From the NCBI GenBank assembly GCA_015234115.1, contig JADFWP010000002.1:62001-126000 (forward strand): 64,000 nucleotides of DNA, in the 5' to 3' direction. Source of the DNA: Magnetococcales bacterium (GTDB lineage: Bacteria > Pseudomonadota > Magnetococcia > Magnetococcales > Magnetaquicoccaceae). Under the pieces are notes generated by a model that made no database searches, was not told the DNA's origin, and saw nothing but the letters and a program-made list of their open reading frames with translations. A program made the position numbers and the translations under genes. This document shows, piece after piece, positions 1,377-23,124 of this stretch; position 1 is the stretch's first letter, and each line of letters starts with the position of its first letter.

Positions 1377-1490
1377 AATCGGGATCATGACGGGCCAGCA
1401 TGCGATCATACCGCACCGCGTCTCATCCTGGTGCCGCGCCGATCATGCCGATTATGCCAGAATGAGTCTGATCCATCCTCCGGAGGCGCC

Positions 1491-4571: not shown

Positions 4572-4597
4572 CGCCGTGTTCACAAAGGAATTATGCA

Positions 4598-6190
4598 ATG
4601 TATCGGAATCACTTTGGCTTGCGGGGCCACCCTTTTGCGCCCACCCCGGACACAGAGCGGTTCTTTGCAGGTGGCGAACGCAAGAAAATATTGGAACAAC
4701 TCATCGAAGCCATTCAGGGCGGGGAATGGATGATTCAGGTGATCGGAACCCCAGGATCGGGCAAGACCATGCTTTGCCGGATGCTGTGCCAATCCCTGCC
4801 CTCTTCGACCCAACTGGCGTTGCTGCTCAATCCCAATCTCTCGTCCAGAGAGCTTATCCCGTCGATTTTGAACGAATTTCGCGTGTCCACTCCAGACCAG
4901 AAGGATCGTGTGGCCATCCGTCATGCCCTGCTGGACCATCTGCTGACCCTGCACCGTCGGGGTGACCGGGCGCTGCTGGTGATCGATGACGCCCATTGCA
5001 TGCCTCCGGCCACGCTCGAAGAGCTGCGTCTGCTGGGCAACATGGAGACCCGACAGGCAAAACTCCTGCAAGTGGTGCTCTTTGCCCACCCTGCCCTGGA
5101 ATCGCTGCTGCACCACGAGACCGTCAGCCATCTGGGCGAGCGGATCTCCACCCGGCTGACACTGCGTCCGCTGACCGTGCCGGAAACCGAGGCCTATCTG
5201 CTGACCCGTCTGCAAGCGGTTGGCGCTGTGGGGAGTTCCCTGTTTTCTCCACGGGCGCTCCGCTGCCTGCAACGCGCCTCCAAAGGCGGATTGCAGCAAA
5301 TCAACCATCTGGCCCATCGGGCGCTGCAACACGCCCAAACCGAATCCGCCGCCCAGGTCACCGCACGCCATGTGAACCGGGCCATACAGGGCGATTCATG
5401 CTCCGGGTTCCGGTTTCCCGGCTCCCGACCAATGGTGGCTACCGTCGGCACGGCGTTGTTGCTCGCCGGCGGCATTGTGCTGCACTCCTGGGCCATTGGT
5501 CCGATGCTGACTGCCGCTCACGACAATCCGGTCCTGCGGGTCGAACCCGCCATCCCATCGGACCAGACCGCCGCCGGGACGGCCCCACCCGCCCCGCTCC
5601 CATTGCCCGCAGCCGTACAACAGGTCACGCCTGCGGCGTCTGCGGTTCTTTCGGCTCTGCCTGCTGATCCAGCCAGCAGCGTCACACCGGATCAGGCGTC
5701 AATGGCACTCACCATGGCGCAGGCGCTCACCCCTCCGGCACAGACCGAGCATCGCCCCGTGCAAACCGTTCAGGCGGCCCCCCCGGTCAGCCCTGTCAAG
5801 CTTCCAACAGGCCCGCAACCCTGCCTGAAACCCGAAGATCCCCTCAAGGAGGCGATTCTCGCCTCTCATCACTGGTTGGAGCAGGGGGATGAAGCGCACT
5901 ATACCATTCAGTTGAGTCTGCTGAACCACGATACCGGCCTGAAGAACGTGATGGAGCAGTTGACCACAGTCCCATCGCCACCCGATGGATTCGTGCTGAA
6001 AATTTTTCGGACTTATGACGATAAATTATTGGTTTATTTGAATGAATGCCCATCGTCCCAGGCCTGCGAGGCGCTGCTTGAACGGTTGCCGTCCGGCATG
6101 AAGGCCAAACAACCCAGAGTCCGTTCCCTGGCCCGTCTCAAGACCACGGTGCAGAAGCTGGCCCTGACCGTACCCCGACTGGCTGGGTGA
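4598..6190 (+). CDS. MshM/ExeA-like AAA ATPase with TM segment and C-terminal SPOR-like domain
   Basis: MYRNHFGLRGHPFAPTPDTERFF, P-loop GTPGSGKT, LLVIDDAH Walker B; ATG at 4598 with AAAGGAA upstream. Confidence 0.85.
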   Translation: MYRNHFGLRGHPFAPTPDTERFFAGGERKKILEQLIEAIQGGEWMIQVIGTPGSGKTMLCRMLCQSLPSSTQLALLLNPNLSSRELIPSILNEFRVSTPDQKDRVAIRHALLDHLLTLHRRGDRALLVIDDAHCMPPATLEELRLLGNMETRQAKLLQVVLFAHPALESLLHHETVSHLGERISTRLTLRPLTVPETEAYLLTRLQAVGAVGSSLFSPRALRCLQRASKGGLQQINHLAHRALQHAQTESAAQVTARHVNRAIQGDSCSGFRFPGSRPMVATVGTALLLAGGIVLHSWAIGPMLTAAHDNPVLRVEPAIPSDQTAAGTAPPAPLPLPAAVQQVTPAASAVLSALPADPASSVTPDQASMALTMAQALTPPAQTEHRPVQTVQAAPPVSPVKLPTGPQPCLKPEDPLKEAILASHHWLEQGDEAHYTIQLSLLNHDTGLKNVMEQLTTVPSPPDGFVLKIFRTYDDKLLVYLNECPSSQACEALLERLPSGMKAKQPRVRSLARLKTTVQKLALTVPRLAG

Positions 6191-7941
6191 TCGCCATGAA
6201 AAAACCAATGCGCGCCCTGCCCTGTCGTCGCACCCCATCCCCCCCATGGTTGCAATTGAGCGCAGCCCTGCTCTCCCTGGTGATGGGATGCGCCCCCACG
6301 CCGCAACCCGTCCGGGGGGAACCGACGGCCTCTTCCACCCAGCCGCTTCCGGCCACGGTCGCGCCCCCCGGCAAGGAGGAGTCGATCCCAGGCACAGTCA
6401 AAGTTTCGACTTTTCTGCCCAAAGAGGGTGAGAAAACCCTGGTGGAATCAACCTACACTGTCGTCGTCACCGATGTGCCGGTGCGGGAGGTGCTTTTTGC
6501 CCTGGCCAGGGACGCCCATCTGAATGTGGACATCGTTCCAGGCATCACCGGCAATGTGACGGTCAACGCCATCGATCAGACGTTGCCACGCATCCTCGAC
6601 CGCATCGCCTATCAGGCCAGAATCCGTTACCAGATCAAGGATAATGTCCTCTCCGTGGAACCGGACCTGCCCTTCCGGCGCAACTATCGGGTCGATTATG
6701 TCTCCACGGCCCGCAAGATGGAATCCGATGTGGCCATTGCCACCAATGTGGCCTCGACCGGCGGCAATGCACCCACCATCAGCAACAGCTCCAGCCTCAA
6801 ACTGGGCAGCACCTCCACGGTCGATTTCTGGAAAGATCTGATCGCCAATCTCAACGAGATCGTTGCTGAAAAAAGTGCCGAGACCGCTGCCAAAGAGACG
6901 AAAAAAGAGGATCAGAACAAGGAAGGCGGCAAGAAAATCATCTGGAACGAGGCCACCGGCGTGGTCAGCGTGCTGGCCACCGAACGTCAGCATCAGGAGG
7001 TGGGCGAGTTCATCGACCGGGTGCTCCACAGCGCCCAGCGTCAGGTGTTGATCGAGGCCACCGTGGCCGAGGTCAATCTCTCCGATCAGTTCCAGACCGG
7101 CATCGACTGGTCGATGATCAAACGCAACGGCACCACGGACAGCGGCAACCGCATCTCCCTGCTCAACAAACGCATGGACGCGGCCCCTGTCTCCCTGTTG
7201 ACCCTCAATCGCACCAAGGTTCCTTTTCTCTCCGACGTGCTCGGCGATCGGGATATCAGCACCACGCTGCATCTGCTGGCCAATTTCGGCAAGACCAAGG
7301 TGCTCTCCTCGCCCCGCATCACGGTGCTCAACAACCAGACCGCCGTGCTGCGTGTCACCACCAACGAGGTCTATTTCCAGATCCGCGTCTCCGAACCGAC
7401 CTACAACGAAAACGGCACCATCCGCACCGGAGCGGTCAGCGAAACCCAGATCCGTACGGTTCCGCTGGGATTCATCATGCAGGTGACCCCGCAGATCAGC
7501 GAATCCGATGTCATCACCCTCAACATCCGCCCCACGATCCAACGGGTCGAAAAATGGGTGGACAACCCGGATCCCAACCTGCGGGTCAATCTGCCGAGCA
7601 ACAGCAGTTTCGTGCCGCCCCAGGTGCCGGTGGTCCAGGTCCAGGAGATGGACTCGGTGTTGCGTGTTCCCAATGGCCATGTGGCGGTGATGGGCGGCCT
7701 GATGGAAAATTCCCGCAGCAAGGAGATGGATGGCATTCCACTCCTGTCGGATCTGCCGGTGGTCGGCGGGTTGTTCAGTTATCGCGACCAGAAAAATTCC
7801 AAATCGGAACTGGTGGTCTTCCTGCGCCCGGTGGTCACGAACGAACCACGGGAACTGATGAACAGGCGTGACAAGGAGATCTTCTCCGAAAAAGATACGC
7901 CCTTTCCTCCAGAATGGGTCCAGGATCCTGCGGCATTATGA
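6187..7941 (+). CDS. MSHA-type pilus secretin (MshL-like)
   Basis: Lipoprotein-like N-terminus, STN/secretin domains, VPVVQVQEMDSVLRVPNGHVAVMGGLMENSRSKEMDGIPLLSDLPVVGGLF secretin signature; GTG 6187 (overlaps previous stop) or ATG 6196. Confidence 0.9.
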   Translation: MIAMKKPMRALPCRRTPSPPWLQLSAALLSLVMGCAPTPQPVRGEPTASSTQPLPATVAPPGKEESIPGTVKVSTFLPKEGEKTLVESTYTVVVTDVPVREVLFALARDAHLNVDIVPGITGNVTVNAIDQTLPRILDRIAYQARIRYQIKDNVLSVEPDLPFRRNYRVDYVSTARKMESDVAIATNVASTGGNAPTISNSSSLKLGSTSTVDFWKDLIANLNEIVAEKSAETAAKETKKEDQNKEGGKKIIWNEATGVVSVLATERQHQEVGEFIDRVLHSAQRQVLIEATVAEVNLSDQFQTGIDWSMIKRNGTTDSGNRISLLNKRMDAAPVSLLTLNRTKVPFLSDVLGDRDISTTLHLLANFGKTKVLSSPRITVLNNQTAVLRVTTNEVYFQIRVSEPTYNENGTIRTGAVSETQIRTVPLGFIMQVTPQISESDVITLNIRPTIQRVEKWVDNPDPNLRVNLPSNSSFVPPQVPVVQVQEMDSVLRVPNGHVAVMGGLMENSRSKEMDGIPLLSDLPVVGGLFSYRDQKNSKSELVVFLRPVVTNEPRELMNRRDKEIFSEKDTPFPPEWVQDPAAL

Positions 7942-9950
7942 GCCTGCTACTCGACATGCTGCATGAGGTGGAAAACGAAGGGAAGAAGACACCGGCACCC
8001 TCCTCCTCGACCGTACCCGAATCCACGACAGCCCCGCAAGGCGCGGAGTCGGCCAACAGCCCGGAACTGCTCTGGATTCAGGAAGATTTCGCAGCGGATC
8101 CGGCGTCCGAATCAGAGGAATCCGAGCCGTTTGACGATGATTTCGACGAGGATTTTCTGGAGTCCATCTCCTGGGATCTGGACGGGGAACCGTCCGACGA
8201 GCCGGAAACCACCACGCCACCCCTCTTTTCCATGGCTCCGTCCGTGGATGAGGAGAAGCCGTTCACCCCCTTCCCCACGCTCATGCCGCTGGACGAAGCC
8301 CAACCAGCCACGCCCTTTCCCACCCTCGCGCCTGTGGCAGAGAGCGCCACCGTTGCCCCGTTCCCAACGCTTGCATTTCAGGAAGAAAAAACCGCCATCA
8401 CGCCTCCGGCAACCAGAACAGCGCCTCCTGTCTCTGCCAGCGTGCCCCGGATGGCCACGCAAACCGCTTTGGATTCCCTGGTTGCATCCTCTCCGGTCCC
8501 GTCTTCTCCGGTGTCTGTGGTTCCTCCCTCCCTGGTCAGAAACGAGGCAGAACCCCGCACAAGTGAACTGCGGCTGCACGAACCTGTGCTGATCGAACCG
8601 CCGGAGGCGACGGCAGCACCGGAACATCACCGCACCCCTGCTCCGGTCAAACGCTTCAACCGGCAGCGCTGGCTGCTGCGCGGGGGGGCGCTGCTGCTGG
8701 GGGTCGTGCTGGCGAGCGGATATTATTTTTATGAAATGCTTGCCAGCGAAACCGAGTTGACCACCCCGAAAGCCCGGAAAGTGCCTGCCAATCCGTCTGC
8801 CGCGCCGGCGTCCGTTCCAGGCGGCAACCCGCCATCCGCCTCCCCCCAGATGGCACAACCCAATGCGCAGCCGCAGCCGGTCCAGCAACCGCAAATGGTC
8901 CAGCAACCGCAGCAGCTCCAGCAGCCGCAGCCGGTCCAGCAACCGCAGCCGGTCCAGCAACCGCAAATGGTCCAGCAACCGCAGCCGGTCCAGCAACCGC
9001 AGCCGGTCCAGCAACCGCAGCCGGTCCAGCAGCCGCAGCCGGTCCAGCAGCCGCAAATGGTCCAGCAACCGCAGCCGGTCCAGCAACCGCAGCCGGTCCA
9101 GCCATCTCGGCCACCCCAGAAACAGAAACCGGTCAAGCCAACCAAACCACAAGCAACGCAATCCGCCCAACCGGCCACAGAGACGCAACCGGCTCCAGCG
9201 AAGAAAGCGGCCCACGAGGTCCCGGTGCGCATTGCTCTGCCCGCCCCGTCACCCGCCACCCCCAACGAGCCGCAGCCTCTGCCCATCGTGGTTCCGGAAT
9301 CGACGGCCCCAACCACCAAACGCGCGCAGAAACCCATGCTCATGCCAGCGCAAGCCCCGTTGCAGGAGGGACGCATCGCACTGCTCAGCGGGGATCTGGT
9401 CAAAGCCCGCACCCTGTTTGCGGCGTTGATGAAACAGGAGCCGCACAACCATCTGGCCATCTCCGGGCTGGCCTCGGTCGCCATCCGCGAACGGAAACAC
9501 GAAGAGGCGCGCGCCTTGTACCGGGCGATTCTCAAGGAAAATCCCCACGACACCCTGGCCATCGCCTCGCTGATCTCCCTCAACGGCAACCCGGATCCGG
9601 TACGGGTGGAGAGTCAACTGCACGCCCTGTTGCGCGAGGCGCCCAACGAGGCCCATCTCCATTTTGCCCTGGGCAACGCCTATGTCGAACAGAAAAACTG
9701 GCCCGAAGCCCAGGCCGCCTTTTTCAATGCCCATCGACTGGATCGCGACAACCCGGACATCGTGTTGAATCTGGCCATCAGCCTGGATCAGATGGGACAG
9801 GAGGCCGCCTCGCTGCCGCACTACCGCAAGGCGGTGGAGTTGATGCGGCAACGCAAAGGCGCCGGTTTCGATCTGCGGGCGGTACAAAAACGGATCGCCA
9901 TCCTCGAAGAGCGACACAGCCCGAACCGACCAGCGACCATCTTCCACTGA
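7938..9950 (+). CDS. MshN-like TPR protein with long Pro/Gln-rich repeat linker
   Basis: MSLLLDMLHEVENEGKK start overlapping secretin stop (ATGA), single TM, PQPVQQ tandem repeats, C-terminal TPRs. Confidence 0.8.
   Translation: MSLLLDMLHEVENEGKKTPAPSSSTVPESTTAPQGAESANSPELLWIQEDFAADPASESEESEPFDDDFDEDFLESISWDLDGEPSDEPETTTPPLFSMAPSVDEEKPFTPFPTLMPLDEAQPATPFPTLAPVAESATVAPFPTLAFQEEKTAITPPATRTAPPVSASVPRMATQTALDSLVASSPVPSSPVSVVPPSLVRNEAEPRTSELRLHEPVLIEPPEATAAPEHHRTPAPVKRFNRQRWLLRGGALLLGVVLASGYYFYEMLASETELTTPKARKVPANPSAAPASVPGGNPPSASPQMAQPNAQPQPVQQPQMVQQPQQLQQPQPVQQPQPVQQPQMVQQPQPVQQPQPVQQPQPVQQPQPVQQPQMVQQPQPVQQPQPVQPSRPPQKQKPVKPTKPQATQSAQPATETQPAPAKKAAHEVPVRIALPAPSPATPNEPQPLPIVVPESTAPTTKRAQKPMLMPAQAPLQEGRIALLSGDLVKARTLFAALMKQEPHNHLAISGLASVAIRERKHEEARALYRAILKENPHDTLAIASLISLNGNPDPVRVESQLHALLREAPNEAHLHFALGNAYVEQKNWPEAQAAFFNAHRLDRDNPDIVLNLAISLDQMGQEAASLPHYRKAVELMRQRKGAGFDLRAVQKRIAILEERHSPNRPATIFH
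8871..9104 (+). repeat. 18-bp tandem repeat (about 13 units) encoding PQ(P/M/Q)(V/L)QQ hexapeptides
   Basis: Direct reading: ccgcagccggtccagcaa and variants, in frame. Confidence 0.95.
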
Positions 9951-9965: not shown

Positions 9966-10688
9966 TCATGCAGTCGGAGGACGCACCGCGCGCAGATAGG
10001 ACTCTTCCAGCGAATGGCCACCAAATTGCTCCCGACACTCGGATGGAGCACCACAAAACAATAACTTTCCGTGATGGAGAATGGCCATGGCGTCGCACAG
10101 GTCATCGACATCGGCCAGCAGATGGGTATTGATGAAAAGCGTCACCCCCTGTTCCTGATGCTGCCGCAACTGCTGTTTCAGCAGGGCACGGGCCAGGGGA
10201 TCCAGACCCGAAGTCGGCTCATCCAGCAGCCAGAGGCGCTTGCCGCTCAACAGGCAGCTCGCCAGACCGAGTTTCTGGGTCATTCCCTTGGAAAGCGCGC
10301 GCACCGGTTTGCGCAGCGCCCCCGGATCCATGTCCAAGGCGACGAGTTGCGCCTCCATGGCCTGGGGATCGGGTTTGGCACCGTGCAGACGCAGGATGAA
10401 GGTCAGGAATTCCCGGCCCGTGAGATGGCCGGGAGGCAGGAAACGTTCCGGCAGATAGGCAATCTCCCGACGCGCCGCCACTTCGGTGGTCGGCACCCCC
10501 CGCAGGAGAATCTCCCCGGAGTCGAGACGACAAAGATCGAGCATGGATTTGATCAACGTGGTCTTGCCCGCGCCATTGCCCCCGGCGAGACCAAAAAAAG
10601 AACCGTTCCGGACCGAAAAATTGATCCGGTCCAGAACGGTCATGCGGGCAAAACGTTTGCTGACCTGATGGATTTCGAGAGCATTCAA
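9966..10688 (-). CDS. ABC transporter ATP-binding protein (pilus-locus associated, PilH-like)
   Basis: GGNGAGKTTLIKSML Walker A, LSKGMTQKLGLA signature, LWLLDEPTSGLD Walker B. Confidence 0.88.
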   Translation of the reverse strand: MNALEIHQVSKRFARMTVLDRINFSVRNGSFFGLAGGNGAGKTTLIKSMLDLCRLDSGEILLRGVPTTEVAARREIAYLPERFLPPGHLTGREFLTFILRLHGAKPDPQAMEAQLVALDMDPGALRKPVRALSKGMTQKLGLASCLLSGKRLWLLDEPTSGLDPLARALLKQQLRQHQEQGVTLFINTHLLADVDDLCDAMAILHHGKLLFCGAPSECREQFGGHSLEESYLRAVRPPTA

Positions 10689-10709
10689 GGTCAGGAGGTC
10701 AAAACCGGA

Positions 10710-11414
10710 TCAGAAGCCGGTGCAGATGAAAACTTTACTGATAGTGGCAGGAGCATAGGGAGTTGCCGTTCCCGCTGCTGCCTCCGTATCTGCCGCCGCA
10801 CTTCCCCGGATATCACCGGTATCACCTGCGCCATCATCGAACTGGGTATCATAAATCATGGCGTAATCCGTGGGGATTTCCTTCATGCAAATCATCTTCC
10901 TGCTGATTCCCAAATAAGATGGCGAAGTCGCGATGTTGTTGCGACCATCGGCAATACCAGTGACGCCACCGGCCGGATTGGTCGGTTGGACAAGCGCGGT
11001 AGCAGCTGTATCCACAAGACATTCACCCTTCACCAGACCTTCGCAATAAAGATGATTCCATGCGAATGCCGTCTCCTGAGTGGCAGCACTTACAGCTGTC
11101 GAGGGTGTACGGTTTGCAGCAGTTGGTTGAAAAAGACCTTCGATCAACCCGTTACCATCTCCCTGATGGACTGCTGTTGGCCACCGCCCGTTGGCCCCGG
11201 AATCATCACCGGGCAGCATCCAGTAGGAATCGGAATAGGCGTTGATCGCACTCTGCACTGCCTGGACATCGGTGGCGATGCGCTTGATCTTGGAGTTCTT
11301 GACCATGGCCTGGCCTTTGAGCACCCCGCCGATCAACAGACCGATGATGACCAGAACAATGGCGATTTCAATCAGGCTGAAACCACCCTGTCGTTTCTTG
11401 AGTTGCAATAGCAT
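10710..11414 (-). CDS. Type IV pilin / prepilin
   Basis: MLLQLKKRQGGFSLIEIAIVLVIIGLLIGGVLKGQ prepilin cleavage motif and hydrophobic N-helix; AAGGA 8 nt upstream of ATG 11414. Confidence 0.9.
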   Translation of the reverse strand: MLLQLKKRQGGFSLIEIAIVLVIIGLLIGGVLKGQAMVKNSKIKRIATDVQAVQSAINAYSDSYWMLPGDDSGANGRWPTAVHQGDGNGLIEGLFQPTAANRTPSTAVSAATQETAFAWNHLYCEGLVKGECLVDTAATALVQPTNPAGGVTGIADGRNNIATSPSYLGISRKMICMKEIPTDYAMIYDTQFDDGAGDTGDIRGSAAADTEAAAGTATPYAPATISKVFICTGF

Positions 11415-11496
11415 GTCGTCCATCCTTATGGCCGAGGTGAAAGCACGATCCTGTGCAGGATCCAGTTATGTATTCCCGATCTTGATAAAGTGTCGA

Positions 11497-12225
11497 TCAG
11501 TTTTTCTTGCTGTCAGGAAGTTTCTCCGCCTCTTCCAGACGTTCCAGCCAGCTTCCCAGCGCCAGCTTTTGGCGGTCAGTCGCTTGTTGGTGCAACAAAA
11601 TACCCCCAATCACCGTCCGGGCGCCAGCCAATTCGTTCTGATCGTAGAGGATTCTGGCATGCAAGCCCCGGACCCAAAAAGGAAGTTGGCCGGTCTGGAT
11701 ATTTTTTTCCAGATCATCCATGTACTTTCGGGCCAGGCGGCCATCTTCCAGCCGGTGGCGGGCCTGCAAGGCGGCAAACGTAAGCCATTGCCAACGATTT
11801 CGGGGTGCTTGCAGAAAGGCGCGATGGACAAAATCGAGCATCCGTCGTTGCCGCTGCGGCTCCGGAACAAATCCGTAGACCCGGATCGCCGCCAGCAGAG
11901 GATATTCGGAATCCGGATCCAATTCAAGAATCCGTTCCAGCCAGCCCGCCAGATGGTGGTAATCCATCTTCTGCAACGACACGGTGACTCCGGCCTGATC
12001 GTCGAAGGTTTGCAGCCAGAGCATCCAGAAGATGGCCACAGCCACCGGATCGCCCAGGGTCGAAAGGCGCATCAGAGCCGAGGCGGGCGGCGGACCAAGA
12101 TCCTCGGGATGGACTTCGGGCGCAGGCGCGTGCCACTTCCAGACCAACTGCAACCCAAGGGCAAGCAGCAGCAACCCGATCAGCCAGCCGGGCGCGGTGC
12201 GGCGCAGTGGGGTCGAACGGTCCAT
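11497..12225 (-). CDS. Hypothetical single-TM protein with alpha-helical (TPR-like) periplasmic part, pilus/ABC-locus associated
   Basis: N-terminal TM (WLIGLLLLALGLQLVW), 242 aa, 9 nt after ABC permease stop. Confidence 0.7.
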   Translation of the reverse strand: MDRSTPLRRTAPGWLIGLLLLALGLQLVWKWHAPAPEVHPEDLGPPPASALMRLSTLGDPVAVAIFWMLWLQTFDDQAGVTVSLQKMDYHHLAGWLERILELDPDSEYPLLAAIRVYGFVPEPQRQRRMLDFVHRAFLQAPRNRWQWLTFAALQARHRLEDGRLARKYMDDLEKNIQTGQLPFWVRGLHARILYDQNELAGARTVIGGILLHQQATDRQKLALGSWLERLEEAEKLPDSKKN

Positions 12226-12234
12226 GGCGGGGAA

Positions 12235-13020
12235 TCAGAACTCCTTTTTGTACAGATCGAACAGCCCGACCGCTGTCAACAACAGCAGAAAGATCCCGGT
12301 TTCGCCGAGAATCGGCCAGATCCCTGCAAACGAACCATCGCCTTGCACCAGCAGAGCCGTGGCGGTGAAACGGTCGAGGGCCGGAAGCGCGCCGGCAATC
12401 CCGGCGAGCAACAGTTGGATCGCCTGGCTGGACCAATGAGCGGTCGTTTCCTGGGCCTGCCGGGCGATGAGCAGTACCGCGCCCATGGAACGGGCCAGCA
12501 GGTAGAATCCGGCGGTCAGGGACAACGCCAGCGGAGCCTGCTGGATGGCCAGGGTCACCACCACAGCGAAGGCGGCCATGATCCACAACTCGCAGGCAAG
12601 AATCAGACTCCACCAGCCGACCGCCTGCCAGGAGACCAAAGGCAGCAACGCCAACCCGCTCACCCCGGCCAGCAACGCCGCCGCTCCGAAGAATCCGAGC
12701 AGCTTGCCCAGCAAAGTGACGCTGCGCGGGAAAGGCATGGCCAGCATCAGATCCATCCCCCGGTTGTGCAGCTCCCGCGCCACGGCAAAGGTGACCAGCA
12801 CCGATACCAGAAACACACTGCCCAGCCGGAAGAAAAAGCCGAGAATCGCTGCCCGCGACTCCGCGTTGCCGGTCAGCAACAGCTCATCGAGAAACAGGGA
12901 AACAATCCATCCCAGGCCGATCATGGCCACGGAAGCCCGGATCAGCCGTTCCCGCAGGGCCTCTTGCAGGGTGAAGCGGGCGATGGTGAAAATCGGTGCC
13001 AGAAAGAATGGAGGGTTCAC
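12235..13020 (-). CDS. ABC-2 type transporter permease
   Basis: Six-TM-like permease; GTG start at 13020 overlaps stop of upstream minor pilin gene (GTGA). Confidence 0.82.
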   Translation of the reverse strand: MNPPFFLAPIFTIARFTLQEALRERLIRASVAMIGLGWIVSLFLDELLLTGNAESRAAILGFFFRLGSVFLVSVLVTFAVARELHNRGMDLMLAMPFPRSVTLLGKLLGFFGAAALLAGVSGLALLPLVSWQAVGWWSLILACELWIMAAFAVVVTLAIQQAPLALSLTAGFYLLARSMGAVLLIARQAQETTAHWSSQAIQLLLAGIAGALPALDRFTATALLVQGDGSFAGIWPILGETGIFLLLLTAVGLFDLYKKEF

Positions 13021-13703
13021 AGGATGTACCCGGACTGGTAGGCATGAAACCGGATCACGTCGTGTGGCAGCCAGATCAGTTGATCATCCCCGCCAAAGCG
13101 AAAAGTCGCGTCCCCGTCGTTGTTCTCCTGCTCGGCTGGCAAAGAGGCGGCAGGCATGGCGACTCCATTCATGGAGAGGGCACCCAGGCCATTTCTGCCA
13201 TGACTGAGCACGAGTACCGGAACGTTGCTGGCCAGATCGACGCTATCGGCCTCGTTGCGGACCGTGATCGCGCCGGTGCTGGCCGCTGCGATCAGCGCGG
13301 GCACGGCCCGGATCGGCGGAGGCGCGGGAAGCAGCGCCGGATCGGCATACGAGAGCGTCACACGATAGCCATAGAGATGTCCCCAGGAATCCACCGGTTT
13401 GACTTGCAGATCCCTCCAGGGCAGCACCCCATCGACACGGCACGGAGCGGTATCCTCGGCCCCATCCGGCGGCATGCTGGCATCGGCGCAGGGCAGACGG
13501 CCATGCAGGGTCACAAATCCCAACAAAGCCGATTGAATGGTGCGCAACTCCTCCTGGGCCGTTTCGAACTGACGCTTGTGGAGTTGGGCACGGATCGCCT
13601 GCCCCCCTCCGAGCAGCACCATGCCCAAAACCGCCAGCATGATCGCCATTTCGATCAGGGAAAATCCAGCGGCCGCGCGCCACCTGGAACGAAACTTCTT
13701 CAT
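13017..13703 (-). CDS. Type IV minor pilin / prepilin-like protein
   Basis: MKKFRSRWRAAAGFSLIEMAIMLAVLGMVLLGGG and LPCAD...CRVDGVLPWRDLQVKPVDSWGHLYGYRV head. Confidence 0.82.
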   Translation of the reverse strand: MKKFRSRWRAAAGFSLIEMAIMLAVLGMVLLGGGQAIRAQLHKRQFETAQEELRTIQSALLGFVTLHGRLPCADASMPPDGAEDTAPCRVDGVLPWRDLQVKPVDSWGHLYGYRVTLSYADPALLPAPPPIRAVPALIAAASTGAITVRNEADSVDLASNVPVLVLSHGRNGLGALSMNGVAMPAASLPAEQENNDGDATFRFGGDDQLIWLPHDVIRFHAYQSGYIL

Positions 13704-13707
13704 GCGA

Positions 13708-15468
13708 TCATTGCCCACAGGTTCCGAGACACATATCCGGGAAATCCACATAACCGCTGTTCAATTTGGTGATGATCACCTCGAACTTGCTTAACGCCGA
13801 CATGTTCTTGTTGCCGAAGTTGACCTTGATGGTGCCTGTTTTGGCATCGGATTTGGTGACGGTCACGCTGTAGCCGCCATTGCAGGTGGTGGTGGTGGCG
13901 TTGGTGAAGTCGAATTGACAGTCAATGGCGCCAAAACTCCCTTCCGGACGGATACGAATCTCGTTCTGACCGCTCAGATTCACCGAGGAGGTGAAATTGG
14001 TGAAGAAATAGGTCGGATTGGTCACAGGCAACACCAGACAGGGATTCGAGGAACGGGCACTCTGACCATTGGTGAAGCGCGAGGCGCCGGTTGCCTGGGT
14101 CATAATGCTCGGTCGGTTGTCGTAGCAGTTGTAATTGCTGGCCTGGAAGAGCAGACCGGTCGGCGCTACCGTCGTGGTGGTGCTGGTTGAGGTGGTGGTT
14201 GTGGTCGGAATCGAGGTGGTGGTGGTGCTGGTCGAAGTGGTAGTGGTTGCAACCGACGTGGTGGCCACCGACGTGGTGGTGGTCGGCACCGTCGTGGTTG
14301 CAACCGACGTGGTGGCCACCGACGTGGTGGTGGTCGGCACCGTCGTGGTTGCAACCGACGTGGTGGTGGTCGAAACCGTCGTGGTCGGAACCGACGTGGT
14401 GGTGGTCGGAACCGACGTGGTGGTGGTCGGAACCGACGTGGTGGTGGTTGCCACCGACGTGGTGGTGGTCGGAACCGACGTGGTGGTTGCCACCGACGTG
14501 GTGGTGGTCGGAACCGACGTGGTGGTGGTCGGAACCGACGTGGACGCTGCGATCGACGTCGTGGTTGTCGTCACGCAACTTATATTGCGTCCAGACTCCA
14601 TCAACTTGGTTTTCAGCAACAGGGGAGAGATGTAAAGAAGCTGGTCATCCCCAGCATTTTGAATATACAAAGGACGCTGGAAATCTTGATCATAATGATG
14701 CCCTGCATGCGCGGCCTGGGTAGCGGGACTGTTGTCCGTCGGGTCGGCGTGGTGCAGATCGTCCTCGTCATCACTGGTTTCGATATCCGCGTTTTCCGCC
14801 TCGCTGTTCAACCGGTTTTCGTAGGCATTCGGATCCTGTCCATTCACCGGCCTGCGCGTGATATAGCCCGGTGATCCAGCCGGTGTCGGCACAATGCTGC
14901 CCGCGCCGTTGGGACCATGAGAAACCACCACCACCGCCAACTGCTCGGCCAACAGGGTGCCCGCGTCCGTATCCTGACGCACCACCAGATTGCCCGTGGT
15001 CGTGCAGGTGATGGCGGAATGGTAGACGGGAGCAAGATGATAGGTAAAATAATTATTCCAGTTATCGTATCTTGGCAATCCCAGCTCTTCCCACGGGAGC
15101 ACGCCATAACTCAACCGACAATTTCCCGCTCCATCCGCATCCCCCACCCCGTCAAAAGCGACCTGGGTGGTGTTGCTCGCATCCACGCCGACATCCGGAC
15201 AGGGCAGAAAACCGTTGCTGGCCGCATACCAGATCAAAGCGTCACGCACCTTGTCGAGCGACAGGTTGGTTTTTTGCTTCTGCTGCTTGTCGCGCATGGT
15301 GGAAAGCGTCGTCAATCCGCCTCCGAGCACGACACTGAGAATCACCAATACGATGGATACTTCGATCAGGGAAAAACCGCCCTGTCTCCCTGCATGGCGC
15401 ATCCGGGTTCTGCTGCGGGATGGGTGGATGACCTGACGGAAATCGCGCATTGAGGATATCTTCAGCAA
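13708..15468 (-). CDS. Minor pilin with Thr-rich (TTTTSVP) linker and distinct C-terminal Cys-containing beta-rich domain; putative pilus-tip adhesin
   Basis: GGFSLIEVSIVLVILSVVLGGG prepilin motif; LPCPD...GVLPWEELGLPRYDNW head; long PTTTTSV repeats; C-terminal domain ending VDFPDMCLGTCGQ. Confidence 0.82.
   Translation of the reverse strand: MLKISSMRDFRQVIHPSRSRTRMRHAGRQGGFSLIEVSIVLVILSVVLGGGLTTLSTMRDKQQKQKTNLSLDKVRDALIWYAASNGFLPCPDVGVDASNTTQVAFDGVGDADGAGNCRLSYGVLPWEELGLPRYDNWNNYFTYHLAPVYHSAITCTTTGNLVVRQDTDAGTLLAEQLAVVVVSHGPNGAGSIVPTPAGSPGYITRRPVNGQDPNAYENRLNSEAENADIETSDDEDDLHHADPTDNSPATQAAHAGHHYDQDFQRPLYIQNAGDDQLLYISPLLLKTKLMESGRNISCVTTTTTSIAASTSVPTTTTSVPTTTTSVATTTSVPTTTTSVATTTTSVPTTTTSVPTTTTSVPTTTVSTTTTSVATTTVPTTTTSVATTSVATTTVPTTTTSVATTSVATTTTSTSTTTTSIPTTTTTSTSTTTTVAPTGLLFQASNYNCYDNRPSIMTQATGASRFTNGQSARSSNPCLVLPVTNPTYFFTNFTSSVNLSGQNEIRIRPEGSFGAIDCQFDFTNATTTTCNGGYSVTVTKSDAKTGTIKVNFGNKNMSALSKFEVIITKLNSGYVDFPDMCLGTCGQ
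14166..14577 (-). repeat. Imperfect in-frame tandem repeats (about 21-bp units) encoding Thr-rich linker
   Basis: Repeated gtggtggtcggaaccgac / gtggttgcaaccgac units on + strand, = PTTTTSV / ATTTTSV on - strand. Confidence 0.92.
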
Positions 15469-15574: not shown

Positions 15575-16312
15575 CTACAGCGGCATTTGATTCACCGCAC
15601 CGATCATCTCCGCACAGGTGATGCCCAACAGACGGTCGTTGAACGGCGGGGAAGCGACCCCCCCTGCGGTCGTGGTCATGATCCGCATCGCCCTGAAGTT
15701 CGTGGTGGCCGTGGCATTTTCCTGTTCCAGAAACTGATCGCGCAACCCTGCCGCCGTACTGGTCGCAATCCGGCTCTGCATGGTGGCTGACGGCAGCAGC
15801 GCCAGCGGCGTTCCCGGTGAAAAAAGAATCGCCGCAAAATTGCCGCTGCCGTTGATGGTCAGATTCGCCGTATCGCAGGTATAGGGCATGGTCTGGGTCG
15901 AGCCGGTCTTGAAACGGCCTGCCACCGCATACCAGAGCGGTGCATTGTCGCCATCCACCAACGGAGCGATCCCCAGGCTCCGCCAGGGAAGAAATCCGAC
16001 CGCCACCACACCGTCATTGCCACCGCACGCCCCGGCTGCCACGGCATTGGTGGCATAATCGGCCAACGTGCCCGCGAACGGACAGGGAAGATTGCCAAAA
16101 CCGGTTCGGGTGACCGCCTCCAGGGCGCCGGTGGCGATCAACGCCCGTTTCGCCTCGGCCAGCGCGATGGTGGCCTTTTGATCGTCACGCAGTCGTTTGC
16201 TTTTGACCAGCAGCGCCTCGATGGCCATGGAGGCCCCGGCCATGAGGATGATCGACAACAATACCATCAACGCCGCACCCCGCTCGTGGCGACGCGCTTC
16301 AGGGTTGCGCAT
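15575..16312 (-). CDS. PilX/MshP-like pilus assembly protein with LPC...LPW minor-pilin head domain
   Basis: RGAALMVLLSIILMAGASMAIEALL N-helix; LPCPFAG...FLPWRSLGIAPLVDG. Confidence 0.72.
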   Translation of the reverse strand: MRNPEARRHERGAALMVLLSIILMAGASMAIEALLVKSKRLRDDQKATIALAEAKRALIATGALEAVTRTGFGNLPCPFAGTLADYATNAVAAGACGGNDGVVAVGFLPWRSLGIAPLVDGDNAPLWYAVAGRFKTGSTQTMPYTCDTANLTINGSGNFAAILFSPGTPLALLPSATMQSRIATSTAAGLRDQFLEQENATATTNFRAMRIMTTTAGGVASPPFNDRLLGITCAEMIGAVNQMPL

Positions 16313-16928
16313 GATCTTTCTCCGGATGTCTCTTGGCACTGCCGCCTCCCTGATCGCTCTTGCCGGCTTTCGAACGCGCTTCCTCCTCCGGATCGCCACC
16401 TCGCGTGGCCGTGTAGCGCACCTCTGCCGGAATCTCATGGCTCGGACGGATGATCTTCTCTTCCGCATCCAGGGTCATGCCCGGCACCAGCAGAAACGGT
16501 TTCGGGGCATCCACCAGACGGATCCAGACCCCACGGGAGGGATCCTCCGTGGGTTCCAGGCGATAGTTCTCTCCGACATGACCTTTGGCCGCTTCGAACT
16601 GCCTCCGGTTGAGCCACACCGACGATTTCCCCTCTTCCCGCAGTACCAGACCACCGACCGTCAGATAACGCGGCCCCTTGGGAATCTGCGCCGGAGTCAT
16701 CCCCACCATCCCCAGTTCACCGCCCGTCGTCGCCCCCTCCGCACCAGCGGGCGCAAGCGGTTGCACACCCTCCGTCTGCCGGATCCGCTCCAGCGCCTCG
16801 CGCTGCTGCGGGGTGTTGAACAGCCTGCCCAGTCCGGGCCACCCCTCCGCAGCCGCTTCGGAGGCCCCGTGACCGGTTCCGCTCCCGCAGAGGATCCACG
16901 ACACCAGCAAGAGACGCAAGGCATTCAT
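16299..16928 (-). CDS. Secreted pilus-locus protein (MshK-like position)
   Basis: Signal peptide MNALRLLLVSWILCGSG; ATG 16928 overlaps upstream stop (ATGA); conserved position in operon. Confidence 0.6.
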   Translation of the reverse strand: MNALRLLLVSWILCGSGTGHGASEAAAEGWPGLGRLFNTPQQREALERIRQTEGVQPLAPAGAEGATTGGELGMVGMTPAQIPKGPRYLTVGGLVLREEGKSSVWLNRRQFEAAKGHVGENYRLEPTEDPSRGVWIRLVDAPKPFLLVPGMTLDAEEKIIRPSHEIPAEVRYTATRGGDPEEEARSKAGKSDQGGGSAKRHPEKDHAQP

Positions 16929-17557
16929 CGGCTCTTGCTCTCCGTCTCCCGGAAGTTGAACCACTCCACCTGACAAGTCGCCTGCACGTTGACCTTGAAT
17001 CGGCTGCCCGCCTTGCCAGCCGGTTTGGCATCGCTCTGCGGTTGCATCCGGCACTGCGTGAACTGGATCAAACCGGCTTTCTTCTGCGCCAGAAAGGCGA
17101 TCAGGGCGAGCAGATCCCCTTCGTGCAGCATGCCGATGGTCATCTCCATGCGACTGGCGAAGAGTTGATAATCCTGGCTCGGCGGCACAGGATAGCCCGG
17201 AGTGTAGGCACGGGCCGGATCCAGCTTGTACTTGATCGGCACCGGCAGTTTCAAGGCCGCCTCTGCCTCCCGGATCGATTCCACCCACTGCAAACGCGGT
17301 TCAGGACCGATCACCCCCTGCTGACGCAACGCGTCGTAACGGGGCTGGATCATGGCCAGCACCCGCCCCTGCTCCTCTTGTTGCAGCAGATTGTTCTGAA
17401 GCGCGACAATGCTGCGGCGCAACTTGTCCAGCACCAGATTGGCATCGTCCAGATAGTGCCAACCGACCAGAATCATGCCGATGCCCGACACCAGCGCAAC
17501 CAGCAACAAGACCATCGCACGGGTCAGCAAACGCCATTCGATCCGGGCGTTGTTCAT
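16925..17557 (-). CDS. PilO/GspM/MshJ-like pilus assembly protein
   Basis: N-terminal TM + coiled coil + small C-terminal domain; ATGA overlap with upstream gene. Confidence 0.65.
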   Translation of the reverse strand: MNNARIEWRLLTRAMVLLLVALVSGIGMILVGWHYLDDANLVLDKLRRSIVALQNNLLQQEEQGRVLAMIQPRYDALRQQGVIGPEPRLQWVESIREAEAALKLPVPIKYKLDPARAYTPGYPVPPSQDYQLFASRMEMTIGMLHEGDLLALIAFLAQKKAGLIQFTQCRMQPQSDAKPAGKAGSRFKVNVQATCQVEWFNFRETESKSR

Positions 17558-19128
17558 GGACCCTTCCGCCTGGAAAGCAGAATCCGCAAACGGAAAGGCG
17601 CGCTGCCCGACAGCTCGGCCTCGCCACCCTGAATCACCTGATGATCCCCCAGATTCAACGGCATCTGCACGGGTTGCACCTCCATGCATTCGGGCAGGGC
17701 GCGCACGTCCTGAATGAACCGTTCCACATCCGCCATCGCCGCCTTGAGCGTGTCGAACGGTTCAACCCGCCCGGAGATCAACACCATTTGCGCATCCGGT
17801 CGGGTCGGTTGCGGCGACTGTGGCTGTGACGACGGCGCTTTCGGTTGGGGTTGCCCGCCCGGTTTGGCAGGCTGAGTCCGGGTGTTCTGGGTGCCTTCGT
17901 TCCACTCCAGACTTTCGAGGATCAGTCGCTCGTGTTTCAACAGGGTCTGGCCCACGGTTTGAATCGCCTCTCCGGGATCCATGAGGTGGGCCTCCAGGAG
18001 TTCGGCCCACTTGACTGCGGTGATGATCCGTCGTCCTTCCTGCTGGGTGCGGGTATCGGGCAGCCGTCGGACCGCCTTTTGAATCTCCTCGGCCTGACGG
18101 GACAACTCCGGCTGTTCGTCCCGGAGCGTGCGCCCCTGCCAGAAAAGCAACAGACACCCCAGCAGACAGGCCACGAAAAAAAACAGCGCCGCCCACCGCA
18201 AACGACGCCCCAGACGCAAGGTCCGCCAGACGATCACATCCTCGGGACGGGCGTAATGGTTGGGAATCGCCCAACGCAGCAGACATTGACCGAACAGCGG
18301 ATCCATCCGGCCATCGGCCAGATCGCTCTTGAGCGCGACACGGGCCGCGATCCGGGTGCCATCCAGCGGGTAGAGATGATATCCCCCGCTCCCCTTGTTG
18401 GCCCCCTCTTGCAGCAACCGGAACAATCCGGCATGACACAATACATGAACATGCAGCGGATCGTTCCATGAATAGAGCCGCTGACTGACCAGATAGCCCT
18501 GCATCCGCGCCACTTCGCCATGCAGAAACGGCACCAGATCGGTCATCTCCTGGGTCGGCAAACGACTGAGCCGACTGAGGGACATCTGCCCGTTATGCAG
18601 AAAGGTCTGACGCAGACCGCCGGCATGAATGCTCAACAGCAGTACATCCTTCTGATCCGGCGTCATCGCCCCCTGAAACAGGCGCGTGGTCAGAAGCGGC
18701 ACCGACCAGATCCCGGCCAGAGGAAGACGCAATGTTTTGAGCAGCTCCAGCCACGGCAATACCAGCTCCTCCGGATCGTTCAGACCCGAAAACAGTGCCC
18801 AGTCCTGGCTGCTGTCCTCCGGATCGCGCCCCAGAAACAGGACATGACGAAACGGCGTGTTGCGCAACAGCCGACTGGAACGGTTTTCCAGCATCCGTTT
18901 CCGGACCAGGGGATTGAGCCGGGGAATCCGTTCGAGCTTGTGCTCCTCTTCCGTGAGGTCGATCAGCATGTAAACCGTCAGGCGCTCCCGGAACGTCTCC
19001 AGATAGGCGCGAAACGGCTCAACCCCCTGATCCTGTTCAAACGTGACCGCCGCGCCAAAGAGATCCCGCTCCCAGGGATAGGCCACCAGATGATGGTTGG
19101 TGATCGAGACAAACAGTCGCGTGGCCAT
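17554..19128 (-). CDS. GspL-like / MshI-like protein: cytoplasmic PilM-type domain + TM + PilN-like periplasmic part
   Basis: ~300 aa cytoplasmic domain, TM RRLRWAALFFFVACLLGCLLLFW, coiled coil and C-terminal domain; N-domain homologous to N-terminus of adjacent ATPase fusion. Confidence 0.7.
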   Translation of the reverse strand: MATRLFVSITNHHLVAYPWERDLFGAAVTFEQDQGVEPFRAYLETFRERLTVYMLIDLTEEEHKLERIPRLNPLVRKRMLENRSSRLLRNTPFRHVLFLGRDPEDSSQDWALFSGLNDPEELVLPWLELLKTLRLPLAGIWSVPLLTTRLFQGAMTPDQKDVLLLSIHAGGLRQTFLHNGQMSLSRLSRLPTQEMTDLVPFLHGEVARMQGYLVSQRLYSWNDPLHVHVLCHAGLFRLLQEGANKGSGGYHLYPLDGTRIAARVALKSDLADGRMDPLFGQCLLRWAIPNHYARPEDVIVWRTLRLGRRLRWAALFFFVACLLGCLLLFWQGRTLRDEQPELSRQAEEIQKAVRRLPDTRTQQEGRRIITAVKWAELLEAHLMDPGEAIQTVGQTLLKHERLILESLEWNEGTQNTRTQPAKPGGQPQPKAPSSQPQSPQPTRPDAQMVLISGRVEPFDTLKAAMADVERFIQDVRALPECMEVQPVQMPLNLGDHQVIQGGEAELSGSAPFRLRILLSRRKGP

Positions 19129-19135
19129 CTAAGGA

Positions 19136-20347
19136 TCACAATTTGGCGATCAGATCGTAGATCGGACCCAGCACCGACAGAATCACCCAACCCATCACAC
19201 CACCCAGCACCATGGTGAGGACCGGTTCGATCAGGGTTTCCAGTTTGCCGATGGTCTCCTTGACCTCGCGGTCGAAGAAATAGCTGACATTCTTCATCGA
19301 CAGATCCAGGCCGCCCGTGGATTCGCCCACCTGCAACATGCTCAACACCAGCGGCGGAAAAAGTTTGACCTGGGCGAAACTGCTGCTGATCTCCCGTCCT
19401 TCGGAGACCATCTCCCGCACCTGCTGCAACGCCTCCTGGATCACCAGATTGTTGGTCAGCCCCTCGCAGATCCGCAAGGACTCCAGCACCGTGATGCCGG
19501 ATTTGTACATCAGGGCAAAGGCATTGGAAAAACGCACCAGAATGATTTTGCGCAGCAGCGGACCGATGATCCAGAGCTTGAGGATCAGGCCATCCACCTG
19601 ACGCCGCGCCCCCTTGCTGATCCGGCAGGCAAACCGGATCAACACCAGGGCCGCGATCGGCAGAAAGACCAGAACCGGCCACCAGGCGGTGATGAAATCC
19701 GAGGTGGCGACCAGGGCGCGGGTGTGCATCGGGATGGTCTCGCCCATTTCGGTGATGAAGGCCATCAGTTGCGGCACCAGGAAGATCATCATGAAAAACA
19801 CCAGTGTCGTGACCGTCAACCCCACCACGGAAGGATAGATCATCACCTTCTTGGTCTGGGCGATCAATTCATCCTCCCATTTGATCGACTCGGCCAGATT
19901 CCGGAAAATTTCTGCCAACTGGCCGGTCCGCTCCCCCATCAGCACCAGTTGCACGAAAATGGCATCGAAAATGCGTGGATGGCTGGCCATGGCATCCGAA
20001 AGGGTCTTGCCGCTCTCCACATCCTCCACCAAAGCGACCGCAACGTTTTTCAGGCGCGCATTTTCAACCCCGTCGCGAAAGTCGGTCAATCCGCGCAGAA
20101 TGGGCACGCCGGCGTTGATCAACTGTTCCATGTGAAAGCAGAACAGAATGATATCCTTGCGCGATACCGAAGAGAATCCCCCTGGCAGCAGCGTGCTCTT
20201 GTGGTCGCTGCCAAGGGATTTCTGGCTGATCAGCATCAGGCCGAGCCGATCAAGACGGAGTTCCAGATCATCCAGATTGGAGGCGTCCAGAGTGCCTTTC
20301 TGAATCTTGCCTTTGCTGTCCGTGGCTTTGTACTGATATTTCGGCAT
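19136..20347 (-). CDS. GspF/PilC/MshG-family inner-membrane platform protein
   Basis: MPKYQYKATDSKGKIQKGTLDA start, two GspF domains (HMEQLINAGVPILRGL; RFSNAFALMYKSGITVLESLRI), 3 TM. Confidence 0.93.
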   Translation of the reverse strand: MPKYQYKATDSKGKIQKGTLDASNLDDLELRLDRLGLMLISQKSLGSDHKSTLLPGGFSSVSRKDIILFCFHMEQLINAGVPILRGLTDFRDGVENARLKNVAVALVEDVESGKTLSDAMASHPRIFDAIFVQLVLMGERTGQLAEIFRNLAESIKWEDELIAQTKKVMIYPSVVGLTVTTLVFFMMIFLVPQLMAFITEMGETIPMHTRALVATSDFITAWWPVLVFLPIAALVLIRFACRISKGARRQVDGLILKLWIIGPLLRKIILVRFSNAFALMYKSGITVLESLRICEGLTNNLVIQEALQQVREMVSEGREISSSFAQVKLFPPLVLSMLQVGESTGGLDLSMKNVSYFFDREVKETIGKLETLIEPVLTMVLGGVMGWVILSVLGPIYDLIAKL

Positions 20348-20373: not shown

Positions 20374-23124
20374 TTAATGGACTGCGACCCGACCAAGCAC
20401 CCGGATCACCTCTTCGAGGCTGGTCTCTCCGTTCAGGACATGTCGCGCGCCGTCATCCCAAAGGGTCTGAAACCCCTGATCGCGCGCCGCCTGACGGAAC
20501 TCGGCCGGATGGGCGCGCCGGGAGATCAGGTCGTGGAAGGCGTCGTCGGTGATCAGGCTCTCCATGACGCAGAGGCGTCCCTTGAAACCGGTCTCGCCGC
20601 AGGCCGGACAGCCGACCGCGCGATGGATCGTGGTTTTCTCCAGGCCGGTTTCTCCGACAACCGCAGCCAGAATCCGGCGCTGTTCCGGTTCCAGGGGGTG
20701 CGGCTCCTTGCAGCGGGGACAGAGCCGCCGGACCAGACGTTGCGCCAGCACGCCGATGATGTTGCCCGCCAGGGTATGGGGTTCGAGTCCCATGTTGAGC
20801 AGACGGGGGATCGCGGCCAGCGCCGAATTGGTGTGCAGGGTGCTGTAGACCTGATGACCGGTCATGGCGGCGCGCAGGGCCATCTGGGCGGTTTCGACAT
20901 CCCGAATCTCCCCCACCAGAATGATGTCCGGATCCTGACGCAGAATCGAACGGATTCCGGTGGCGAAATCCAGTCGGATCGTCTCGTTGACCGAGGTTTG
21001 CAGGATCGAGGGCATGGGATACTCCACCGGATCCTCCTGGGTCATGATGTTGCGTTCCGTGGCATTCAGGGTGGAGATGATGGAGTAAAGCGTGGTGGTC
21101 TTGCCGCTGCCTGTGGGACCGGTGACCAGAATGATCCCTTCCGGCTGGCCCATCATGAAGGCGATGGCCTGACGGTTGTGATCGGAGAGGCCGAGGGCGT
21201 CCAGATCCAGAATGCGCCGCGCCCGGTCCAGGATGCGCAGCACGATGTTTTCGCCATGGATGGTGGGTTGGGTCGAGGCGCGAAAATCGATGGTGCGACC
21301 CGCCAGGGTGAGAGAAAAATGACCATCCTGGGGCAATCGGGTTTCGGCGATGTCCATGCCGCACATCACCTTGAGCCGCACGGTGAGTCCGGGCTGGAAT
21401 TTCTGGTGCAGGGAGCGCACCTGACGCAATACCCCGTCCATGCGGTATCGGATCTGGATGAAGGCGGCCATGGGACCGAAATGGATATCCGAGGCATCGT
21501 GCTTGATGGCATCGGTGAGCAGGGCATTGACCAGACGCACCATCGGATGGCTGAACTCCCCGGAGCGGGACGCCAGGCTTTCCAGATCCACTTCGCCGCT
21601 TTCGAGTTCGCGCAGAATGCCATCGACCGAAAGCTCGAAGCCGTAGATGCGGTCCAGCACCTCGGTCACTTCGGTTTCGGTGGCCAGTCTGGACTCCACG
21701 GTGGTGCCGGGGGGCAGACGGGCCATCAGGCGATCCAGCGTGGCCATGTCCAGGGTGTTGGCCATGGCGACCACGAGCTGTTGCCGTTCGGGATGCCAGG
21801 CCACGGGGATGACCCCATGCCGTTTGGCGAACGCCTTGGGCACCAGGTGGATCGCCTCCGGATCCAGGGTGGCGTGCCTGAGATCGATGATCTCCTGTTG
21901 CAGAATCCCCCCCAGCAGGTCGCGCATCTGCCGTTCGGCGAGAAAACCCAGAGCCACCAGCGTCTTGCCCAGGGGTTGCTGCTGCCGGTTCTGTTCGGAG
22001 AGGGCAATGGCGAGTTGATCGGCGGAGATCACCCCTTTTTCCACCAGCAATTCGCCGATGCGCCGCGCAGGCGGTACGGCAGACGCCTCTTCAGGCTTTG
22101 CGACCAGCGCCGAAGCACTCCCCAGCCAGGGTGCGATCCACGCCGCCACCGTCGCGCCCGGACTCCGGGAGAGCGCGCCCGGACCCTGGGAGAGAGGCAG
22201 CGGATAACGCGCATGGCGATGATTGGTGGTGAGCAGGTAATGGGCGAACAGCAGTTCGGTGGCCTGTTGTTCCTCCGGGATGGCCACCCCGAGATTCCGG
22301 GCCGCGCGACCGGTTTCCAGCAGATGGCAGATCACCTTGGGATCCGGATTGGCGGCAATCCGCTCGCCCATGCTCGCCAGCAGCCCGTCCGCTGCGAGAA
22401 TGAAGGCATGGATCGGCGCATCGCCGGGCACCAGCCGCAGACTGGAGAGATAGCGCCGGGTTTTGTCGATTTCGTGCATCACCGATTGGGCAGCCGCCGC
22501 CGGTGAATCCGGAGTGCCGGGAATCATGCGGCTCAGCACCGTGCGGCCTTCATAGAAACTGGTCTGCCGCTGCCCCTCGGCATTGAAGGAGATCAACAGG
22601 GCATGATCGGCCCGGATCGGCGTCATCCGGTGCAGCAGACCGCGACTCAACAGCGGCACGGACCACAAACCGGCAATCGCCCGCGCCTTGCGCCGCAGCA
22701 GATCGATCCAGGGTTGCACCCGGCCCGGTTCGGTAAGACCGCAAAACAGCACCCGTTCCAGGCCGCTTTCGTCCCGGCCCTGGGATTCGGCGTGACAAAA
22801 AGGGGTGAGACGAAAGAGTCGTTCCTGACGCCGGCGGATCATCTGATGACGGTTTGGCCCGTACAGCCTGGGGAGACGTTCCCGGTTCAGTTCCTCTTCC
22901 AGGATATCGGCCAGCAAAAAGACCGGACCCGCCAGATCGTGTTGATCCAGATGCCGGGCACACGACTCCACTCCCTGGGCAGAGTTGGGAAAAACGACCC
23001 GACGGCCAAGCCGGTGCGACGCCCAGGGGAGCAAAGAGACGGTTTGATCGTTGATGATCAGGAGAAGTTTTTGCCTGAACAGGCGCGGCGCGGCAACCAT
23101 CATCCATGAAGGCAATGGATTCAT
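20374..23124 (-). CDS. Fusion: GspL/MshI-type cytoplasmic domain (aa ~1-300) + MshEN + GspE-type ATPase
   Basis: Uninterrupted 916-aa ORF; N-part aligns to 17554..19128 product (AG[IL]WSVPLL), MshEN motif RIGELLVEKGVISADQLAIALSEQ at ~22062, Walker A GPTGSGKTTTLYSI, CPRC...CPAC. Confidence 0.88.
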   Translation of the reverse strand: MNPLPSWMMVAAPRLFRQKLLLIINDQTVSLLPWASHRLGRRVVFPNSAQGVESCARHLDQHDLAGPVFLLADILEEELNRERLPRLYGPNRHQMIRRRQERLFRLTPFCHAESQGRDESGLERVLFCGLTEPGRVQPWIDLLRRKARAIAGLWSVPLLSRGLLHRMTPIRADHALLISFNAEGQRQTSFYEGRTVLSRMIPGTPDSPAAAAQSVMHEIDKTRRYLSSLRLVPGDAPIHAFILAADGLLASMGERIAANPDPKVICHLLETGRAARNLGVAIPEEQQATELLFAHYLLTTNHRHARYPLPLSQGPGALSRSPGATVAAWIAPWLGSASALVAKPEEASAVPPARRIGELLVEKGVISADQLAIALSEQNRQQQPLGKTLVALGFLAERQMRDLLGGILQQEIIDLRHATLDPEAIHLVPKAFAKRHGVIPVAWHPERQQLVVAMANTLDMATLDRLMARLPPGTTVESRLATETEVTEVLDRIYGFELSVDGILRELESGEVDLESLASRSGEFSHPMVRLVNALLTDAIKHDASDIHFGPMAAFIQIRYRMDGVLRQVRSLHQKFQPGLTVRLKVMCGMDIAETRLPQDGHFSLTLAGRTIDFRASTQPTIHGENIVLRILDRARRILDLDALGLSDHNRQAIAFMMGQPEGIILVTGPTGSGKTTTLYSIISTLNATERNIMTQEDPVEYPMPSILQTSVNETIRLDFATGIRSILRQDPDIILVGEIRDVETAQMALRAAMTGHQVYSTLHTNSALAAIPRLLNMGLEPHTLAGNIIGVLAQRLVRRLCPRCKEPHPLEPEQRRILAAVVGETGLEKTTIHRAVGCPACGETGFKGRLCVMESLITDDAFHDLISRRAHPAEFRQAARDQGFQTLWDDGARHVLNGETSLEEVIRVLGRVAVH

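Follow-up and report, generated by a model that had tools for sequence, protein, structure and literature searches.

A pilus extension-type ATPase fused to an MshI-type domain of predicted PilM fold in a probable MSHA-type locus of Magnetococcales

We find that a single polypeptide chain encoded by a Magnetococcales bacterium joins an MshI-derived domain of predicted PilM fold to a complete extension-type ATPase. The order of its domains does not correspond to any standard architecture, and the fusion is not a one-off, as at least seven families of the Magnetococcia have conserved it. The gene lies in the window, by which we mean the whole stretch of 64,000 nucleotides that was analysed. Docking of the ATPase in related systems is the task of GspL or PilM, which lie at the inner membrane face and engage its N1/MshEN domain. 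To our knowledge it is still poorly understood how the extension ATPase docks on PilM or GspL and whether this docking is static or exchangeable. A natural and conserved fusion sets the stoichiometry of docking domain to motor at 1:1 and provides cryo-EM with a ready-made single-chain target. It further suggests that the MshI-type domain acts directly on the motor. The locus would offer a natural two-motor pilus with one motor permanently tethered, and docking and switching of pilus motors would thereby become directly testable.

Architecture of the fusion protein

The reading frame is uninterrupted from its ATG start over 916 aa, without a stop, exactly where and on the strand where it had been predicted. 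It is composed of the following parts.

20374..23124 (-), fusion ORF, 916 aa: MshI/PilM-like domain, linker, MshEN and GspE/PilB-type ATPase
22210..23079 (-), N-domain, aa ~16-305: predicted actin-like PilM/GspL fold (BLASTP, AF2, Foldseek, alignment)
22066..22209 (-), linker, aa 306-353: low AF2 confidence
22099..22155 (-), hydrophobic stretch ATVAAWIAPWLGSASALVA inside the linker, aa 324-342, at the place taken in MshI by the transmembrane helix
21631..22062 (-), MshEN domain of the c-di-GMP type, aa 355-498 (PF05157, NF053729, V. cholerae MshE-N 5htl)
20401..21549 (-), T2SSE ATPase, aa 526-908 (Pfam and motif reading)

The motor half is a full GspE-type ATPase, as had been proposed. Pfam recognizes T2SSE at aa 526-908 (2.5e-127; PF00437, 425 bits) and MshEN at aa 411-498 (4e-13). 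The start of the MshEN domain can be placed at about 22062, in agreement with the original prediction, because the match to the NCBIfam c-di-GMP motif model NF053729 (aa 355-404, 59.3 bits against a cut-off of 38) begins at aa 355. V. cholerae MshE-N (5htl) matches this domain with 1.3e-17, and a sequence search of the PDB yielded PilB, PilF and GspE matches from aa ~352 onward. Walker A (GPTGSGKTT), Asp box (PQDG), Walker B (GEIRD), His box and the tetracysteine motif are all intact. With the T2SSE core and these five motifs the fusion belongs to the GspE/PilB superfamily of extension ATPases, and the MshEN c-di-GMP motif together with the MSH gene neighbourhood places it in the MshE subgroup. 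Read by eye, the second half of the c-di-GMP motif has P instead of the consensus R at its first position. Judged from the motif, c-di-GMP binding by MshEN would be a likely control of the fusion.

The first ~300 aa had been described as a GspL/PilM-type domain which aligns with the beginning of the separate protein encoded at 17554..19128. The likeness seen by eye is true homology, since a single BLASTP comparison aligns aa 19-254 of the fusion with aa 4-241 of the neighbour (36% identity, 116 bits, E = 1e-31). The boundaries shift, as the first ~15 aa are outside the domain and its end is near aa 305. Concerning the type of domain, the prediction holds for the fold. AlphaFold2, given an alignment of the N-domain with related sequences of eight contigs from Magnetococcales and one from Thauera, yields a model (pLDDT 83.5, pTM 0.81) which is confident to aa ~310 and then passes into the low-confidence linker. 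When the model is compared with the PDB by Foldseek, PilM chains make up the whole top ten (E 1.2e-10 to 3.7e-9 at a probability of 1.00); FtsA comes next, and then the GspL cytoplasmic domain 4pht (5e-8). The matches also include 5tkw, a protein of a pullulanase type II system. The TM-scores are only about 0.3-0.5, the kinship with PilM resting on about 0.43-0.51, and we therefore regard the match of the modelled domain to the PilM fold as remote yet specific.

At the level of sequence families the label does not hold. Searches of Pfam and NCBIfam with aa 1-350 gave no significant family match, neither PilM_2 nor a named GspL family, and no phosphate loop of the DxGSxxxK type is seen by eye at the N-terminus. 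Because a profile comparison with the canonical PilM of Magnetococcales (hhalign) was negative with E 0.53, we restrict the term PilM/GspL-like to the predicted fold. Other Pseudomonadota encode relatives of the N-domain in their MSH loci; sequence and gene order thus assign the domain to the MshI lineage. It has in common with PilM and the cytoplasmic domain of GspL, whose role in ATPase docking is known, the predicted actin-like fold, but it lacks their sequence profiles and is covalently joined to the ATPase. ATPase docking by the N-domain would be a role carried over from these proteins.

The linker between the N-domain and MshEN comprises ~50 residues in the window fusion and about 36-53 in most relatives, and its sequence is variable. 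On the Kyte-Doolittle scale the neighbouring MshI-like protein reaches 2.44 at its transmembrane helix (aa 312-330); the window fusion has a maximum of 1.42 and no such helix. In 31 of 32 fusions the 19-residue hydropathy stays below 1.6, hence they are devoid of an MshI-type transmembrane helix.

The surrounding pilus locus

MSHA-type systems have the mandatory genes mshA, mshE, mshG, mshL and mshM (PMC6668835). In the window we find E-, G-, L- and M-like genes of this set and several prepilins that are at most candidates for the major pilin mshA. By their gene content, the surroundings of the fusion appear to be an MSHA-type (MSH) pilus locus with the following genes.

19136..20347 (-), MshG/GspF/PilC-type platform protein, beginning 27 bases past the end of the fusion
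17554..19128 (-), MshI-like protein: shared PilM-like domain, transmembrane helix (aa 312-330) and periplasmic part
16925..17557 (-), MshJ/PilO-like protein, by position and conservation, without Pfam match
16299..16928 (-), MshK/PilP-like protein, by position alone, start uncertain
13017..13751, 13708..15468 and 15575..16468 (-), three (minor) prepilin-like genes (Pfam, NCBIfam, neighbourhood comparison)
1464..3224 (+), unfused MshE-like ATPase, start uncertain (1431 possible), 54% identity to the fused motor
4529..6190 (+), MshM/ExeA-like AAA ATPase
6187..7941 (+), MshL-type secretin (TIGR02519 244 bits, just below the cut-off of 250.2)
7914..9950 (+), MshN-like TPR protein

On the (-) strand the fusion, MshG, the MshI-like and the MshJ-like gene follow each other with intergenic gaps of at most about 27 bases. 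A single GspF-type gene, MshG, faces two MshE-type ATPases, one fused and one unfused. In four other loci (L088, L090, L042, L044) the fused and unfused ATPase genes stand in adjoining tandem. In V. cholerae MshI is GspL-like (PilN superfamily), MshJ PilO-like, MshM ExeA-like and MshG PilC-like, and MshE is the extension ATPase (PMC4624765). For the system in the window MshI-MshE fits better than GspL-GspE.

The neighbour at 17554..19128 occupies the MshI slot between MshG and MshJ. Pfam gave no useful match for this protein. It had been proposed that its N-terminal domain is followed by a transmembrane helix and a PilN-like periplasmic part. The helix is indeed present; the periplasmic part, which is only putatively PilN-like, yields a low-confidence AF2 model (pLDDT 64, pTM 0.46) with no significant structural match. 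The fused copy of the domain, in contrast, has neither the helix nor a periplasmic part but runs on into the motor. Compared with V. cholerae MshE, the fusion has the same MshEN c-di-GMP motif, T2SSE core and MshG, MshL, MshM and MshN neighbours, but it adds the ~300-aa domain of predicted PilM fold, and its locus contains one MshE-type ATPase besides it. A long N-terminal extension before the ATPase is also known from Thermus PilF (913-aa chain 6f8l); there, however, it consists of repeated MshEN-type domains and not of an actin-like domain.

Some further genes of the window are worth recording. The interval between both pilus operons (9966..13020, (-) strand) contains genes for two membrane proteins, a prepilin and the ATPase of an ABC transporter, and genes resembling this set are also found close to the pilus loci of other Magnetococcales (L097, L098, L104). 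The prepilin-like protein 13708..15468 (-) has a long mucin-like stretch rich in Thr, Val, Ser and Pro with TTTTSVP repeats. Directly upstream of the unfused MshE, the gene 105..1376 (+) codes for a partial CHASE2 and a class III nucleotide cyclase domain, making a cyclic-nucleotide link to pilus control possible.

Distribution and history of the fusion

We searched 48 Magnetococcia genomes and, more widely, 398 Pseudomonadota genomes. The N-domain is present in 31 of the 48 genomes, and the continuous fusion was verified in 28 of them, from seven families. These comprise 27 genomes with 32 sequences, several of which are cut by contig ends, and in addition G008, whose contig ends after MshEN begins. 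Among the 20 genomes without a verified fusion are nearly complete ones; the fusion gene is therefore common but not universal. Outside the Magnetococcia no fusion was found among the 398 Pseudomonadota genomes, only unfused forms. Eight of these 398 genomes carry the domain outside the class, always in open frames of 484-609 aa, and each neighbourhood that we read has genes for an unfused MshE-like ATPase and for MshG next to the one for the MshI-like domain. A scan of contigs for close relatives returned Magnetococcales (the named records are MAGs) and one unfused Thauera protein, no others; no relatives were found on plasmids or viral contigs. Two candidates were rejected. The 915- and 1034-aa frames of L042 and L044 are not a second class of fusion but unfused MshE whose true starts adjoin MshEN, and the Thauera match (L047) we read as a GspE without fusion, a GspF and an MshI-like protein encoded separately.

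All fused ATPases are split from all unfused ones by one branch of the ATPase tree (support 100/98), and a quick tree agrees (88). This single branch fits one origin of the fusion. The fused ATPases form two main sets, with L097 apart. Set A, which includes the window copy, contains fusions within MSH loci beside MshI. In set B, a fully supported sister clade, the fusion is paired with its own MshG away from MshI. In the N-domain tree MshI of the set-A loci groups with the fusion domains and not with MshI of conventional MSH loci, with a moderate support of 87.

A candidate second motor and the alternatives

We suggest that the fusion is a second extension motor of the MSHA-type pilus which carries its own copy of the docking domain in the same chain and shares MshG with MshE. 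In our estimate there is an even chance that this reading is right. PilB is known to occupy a socket formed by PilM, and in the type II system GspL is the binding partner of GspE (PMC11656802; 4PHT). In Acinetobacter baylyi, as proposed here, two extension-type motors, PilB and TfpB, serve one pilus; TfpB, however, has no described fused platform domain, whereas the Magnetococcales motors are close paralogues from one locus (PMC8213720). With the N-domain fixed ahead of MshEN, the motor would dock in cis at MshG. The self-docked fusion could then compete for the lone MshG with the MshE that is docked separately, or replace it there, and c-di-GMP bound to MshEN might control the fused motor. 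As the window locus also has MshI, the fused copy does not simply compensate for a missing MshI, and since the locus already has a motor without the fusion, a regulatory function of the fusion is possible.

In three genomes with the fusion (G013, G023, G024) MshI is not detectable; these are 93-99% complete, none is closed and a divergent MshI could be missed. The N-domain thus appears able to work without the membrane-tethered copy. One may go further and propose that in Magnetococcales the fused domain has replaced the membrane-tethered MshI. Fusion and MshG would then be a minimal extension unit, anchored by a helix of the linker and needing no alignment complex of the PilM/N/O/P type, and MSH loci would run self-docked and conventionally docked motors on one platform. 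This proposal we hold to be doubtful. An amphipathic helix with basic and aromatic residues is indeed present at the position of the MshI transmembrane helix in the majority of the set-B fusions and in some of those of set A. By a shuffle test p is at most 0.03 in ten sister-clade copies. As the window copy shows the helix only weakly (p 0.10) and several others lack it, it is not a general feature.

If the fusion does not dock through its own MshEN, the motor-tethered domain could instead pair with the membrane-tethered domain of MshI in mixed dimers or rings and recruit the motor in this way. Both copies of the domain share one operon, the domain is kept across the set-A loci, and the grouping of set-A MshI with the fusion domains points in the same direction. 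There are, however, units of fusion and MshG without MshI nearby, and the three genomes mentioned above have none that we could find genome-wide. Pairing with MshI is therefore probably not obligatory, and we think it unlikely that it explains the fusion.

Still less probable in our view is that the fused protein is not a productive motor but fills the docking site or MshG and so brakes MshE-driven extension. We compared 13 fused ATPases of set B (L089, L092, L094, L098, L099, L101, L115-L120, L123). Walker B is changed from GEIRD to GE(V/I)HD in every one of them, and the Asp box from PQDG to PQTG in five and to PQEG in two. Given these altered motifs a regulatory role is conceivable for set B, whose members are possibly divergent or regulatory ATPases. 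Deletion of mshI in V. cholerae leads to more surface piliation (PMC4624765), and thus the family of MshI-type domains can act negatively. Against a brake, the motifs are canonical in the window copy and its clade, and G023 has no recognised MshE-type motor other than the fusion beside MshL and MshN.

Fused and unfused ATPases could also co-assemble into mixed hexamers which carry the docking domain on some subunits only. The 54% identity, the tandem genes in several genomes and the one MshG per two motors would suit such an arrangement, but the known paired motors, PilT/PilU and PilB/TfpB, are described as separate, and we consider co-assembly quite improbable. Finally, the window MAG is only 77% complete, but 28 genomes from separate assemblies share the continuous frame with a linker of roughly constant length, and no conserved internal Met, start or ribosome site was found in the linkers of the relatives, so that we reject an assembly artefact, a frameshift or an internal start, and the chance that the halves are made apart or were joined by a sequencing error is negligible.

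Apart from the fusion described here, additional T2SSE ATPases in frames of ~700-815 aa were noted in G028, G013, G037, G039, G014, G035 and G024, which suggests other N-terminal extensions on pilus motors of Magnetococcia. The very long frame L127 (2426..4999 of G023:C117, 1193 aa) has a weak PilM_2 match and is possibly another PilM-containing fusion, judged by this match; its contig also bears another MshL-type secretin and an ATPase. Most of the 13 class genomes sampled have 6 to 14 T2SSE matches, and the single-contig genome G027 has only two.
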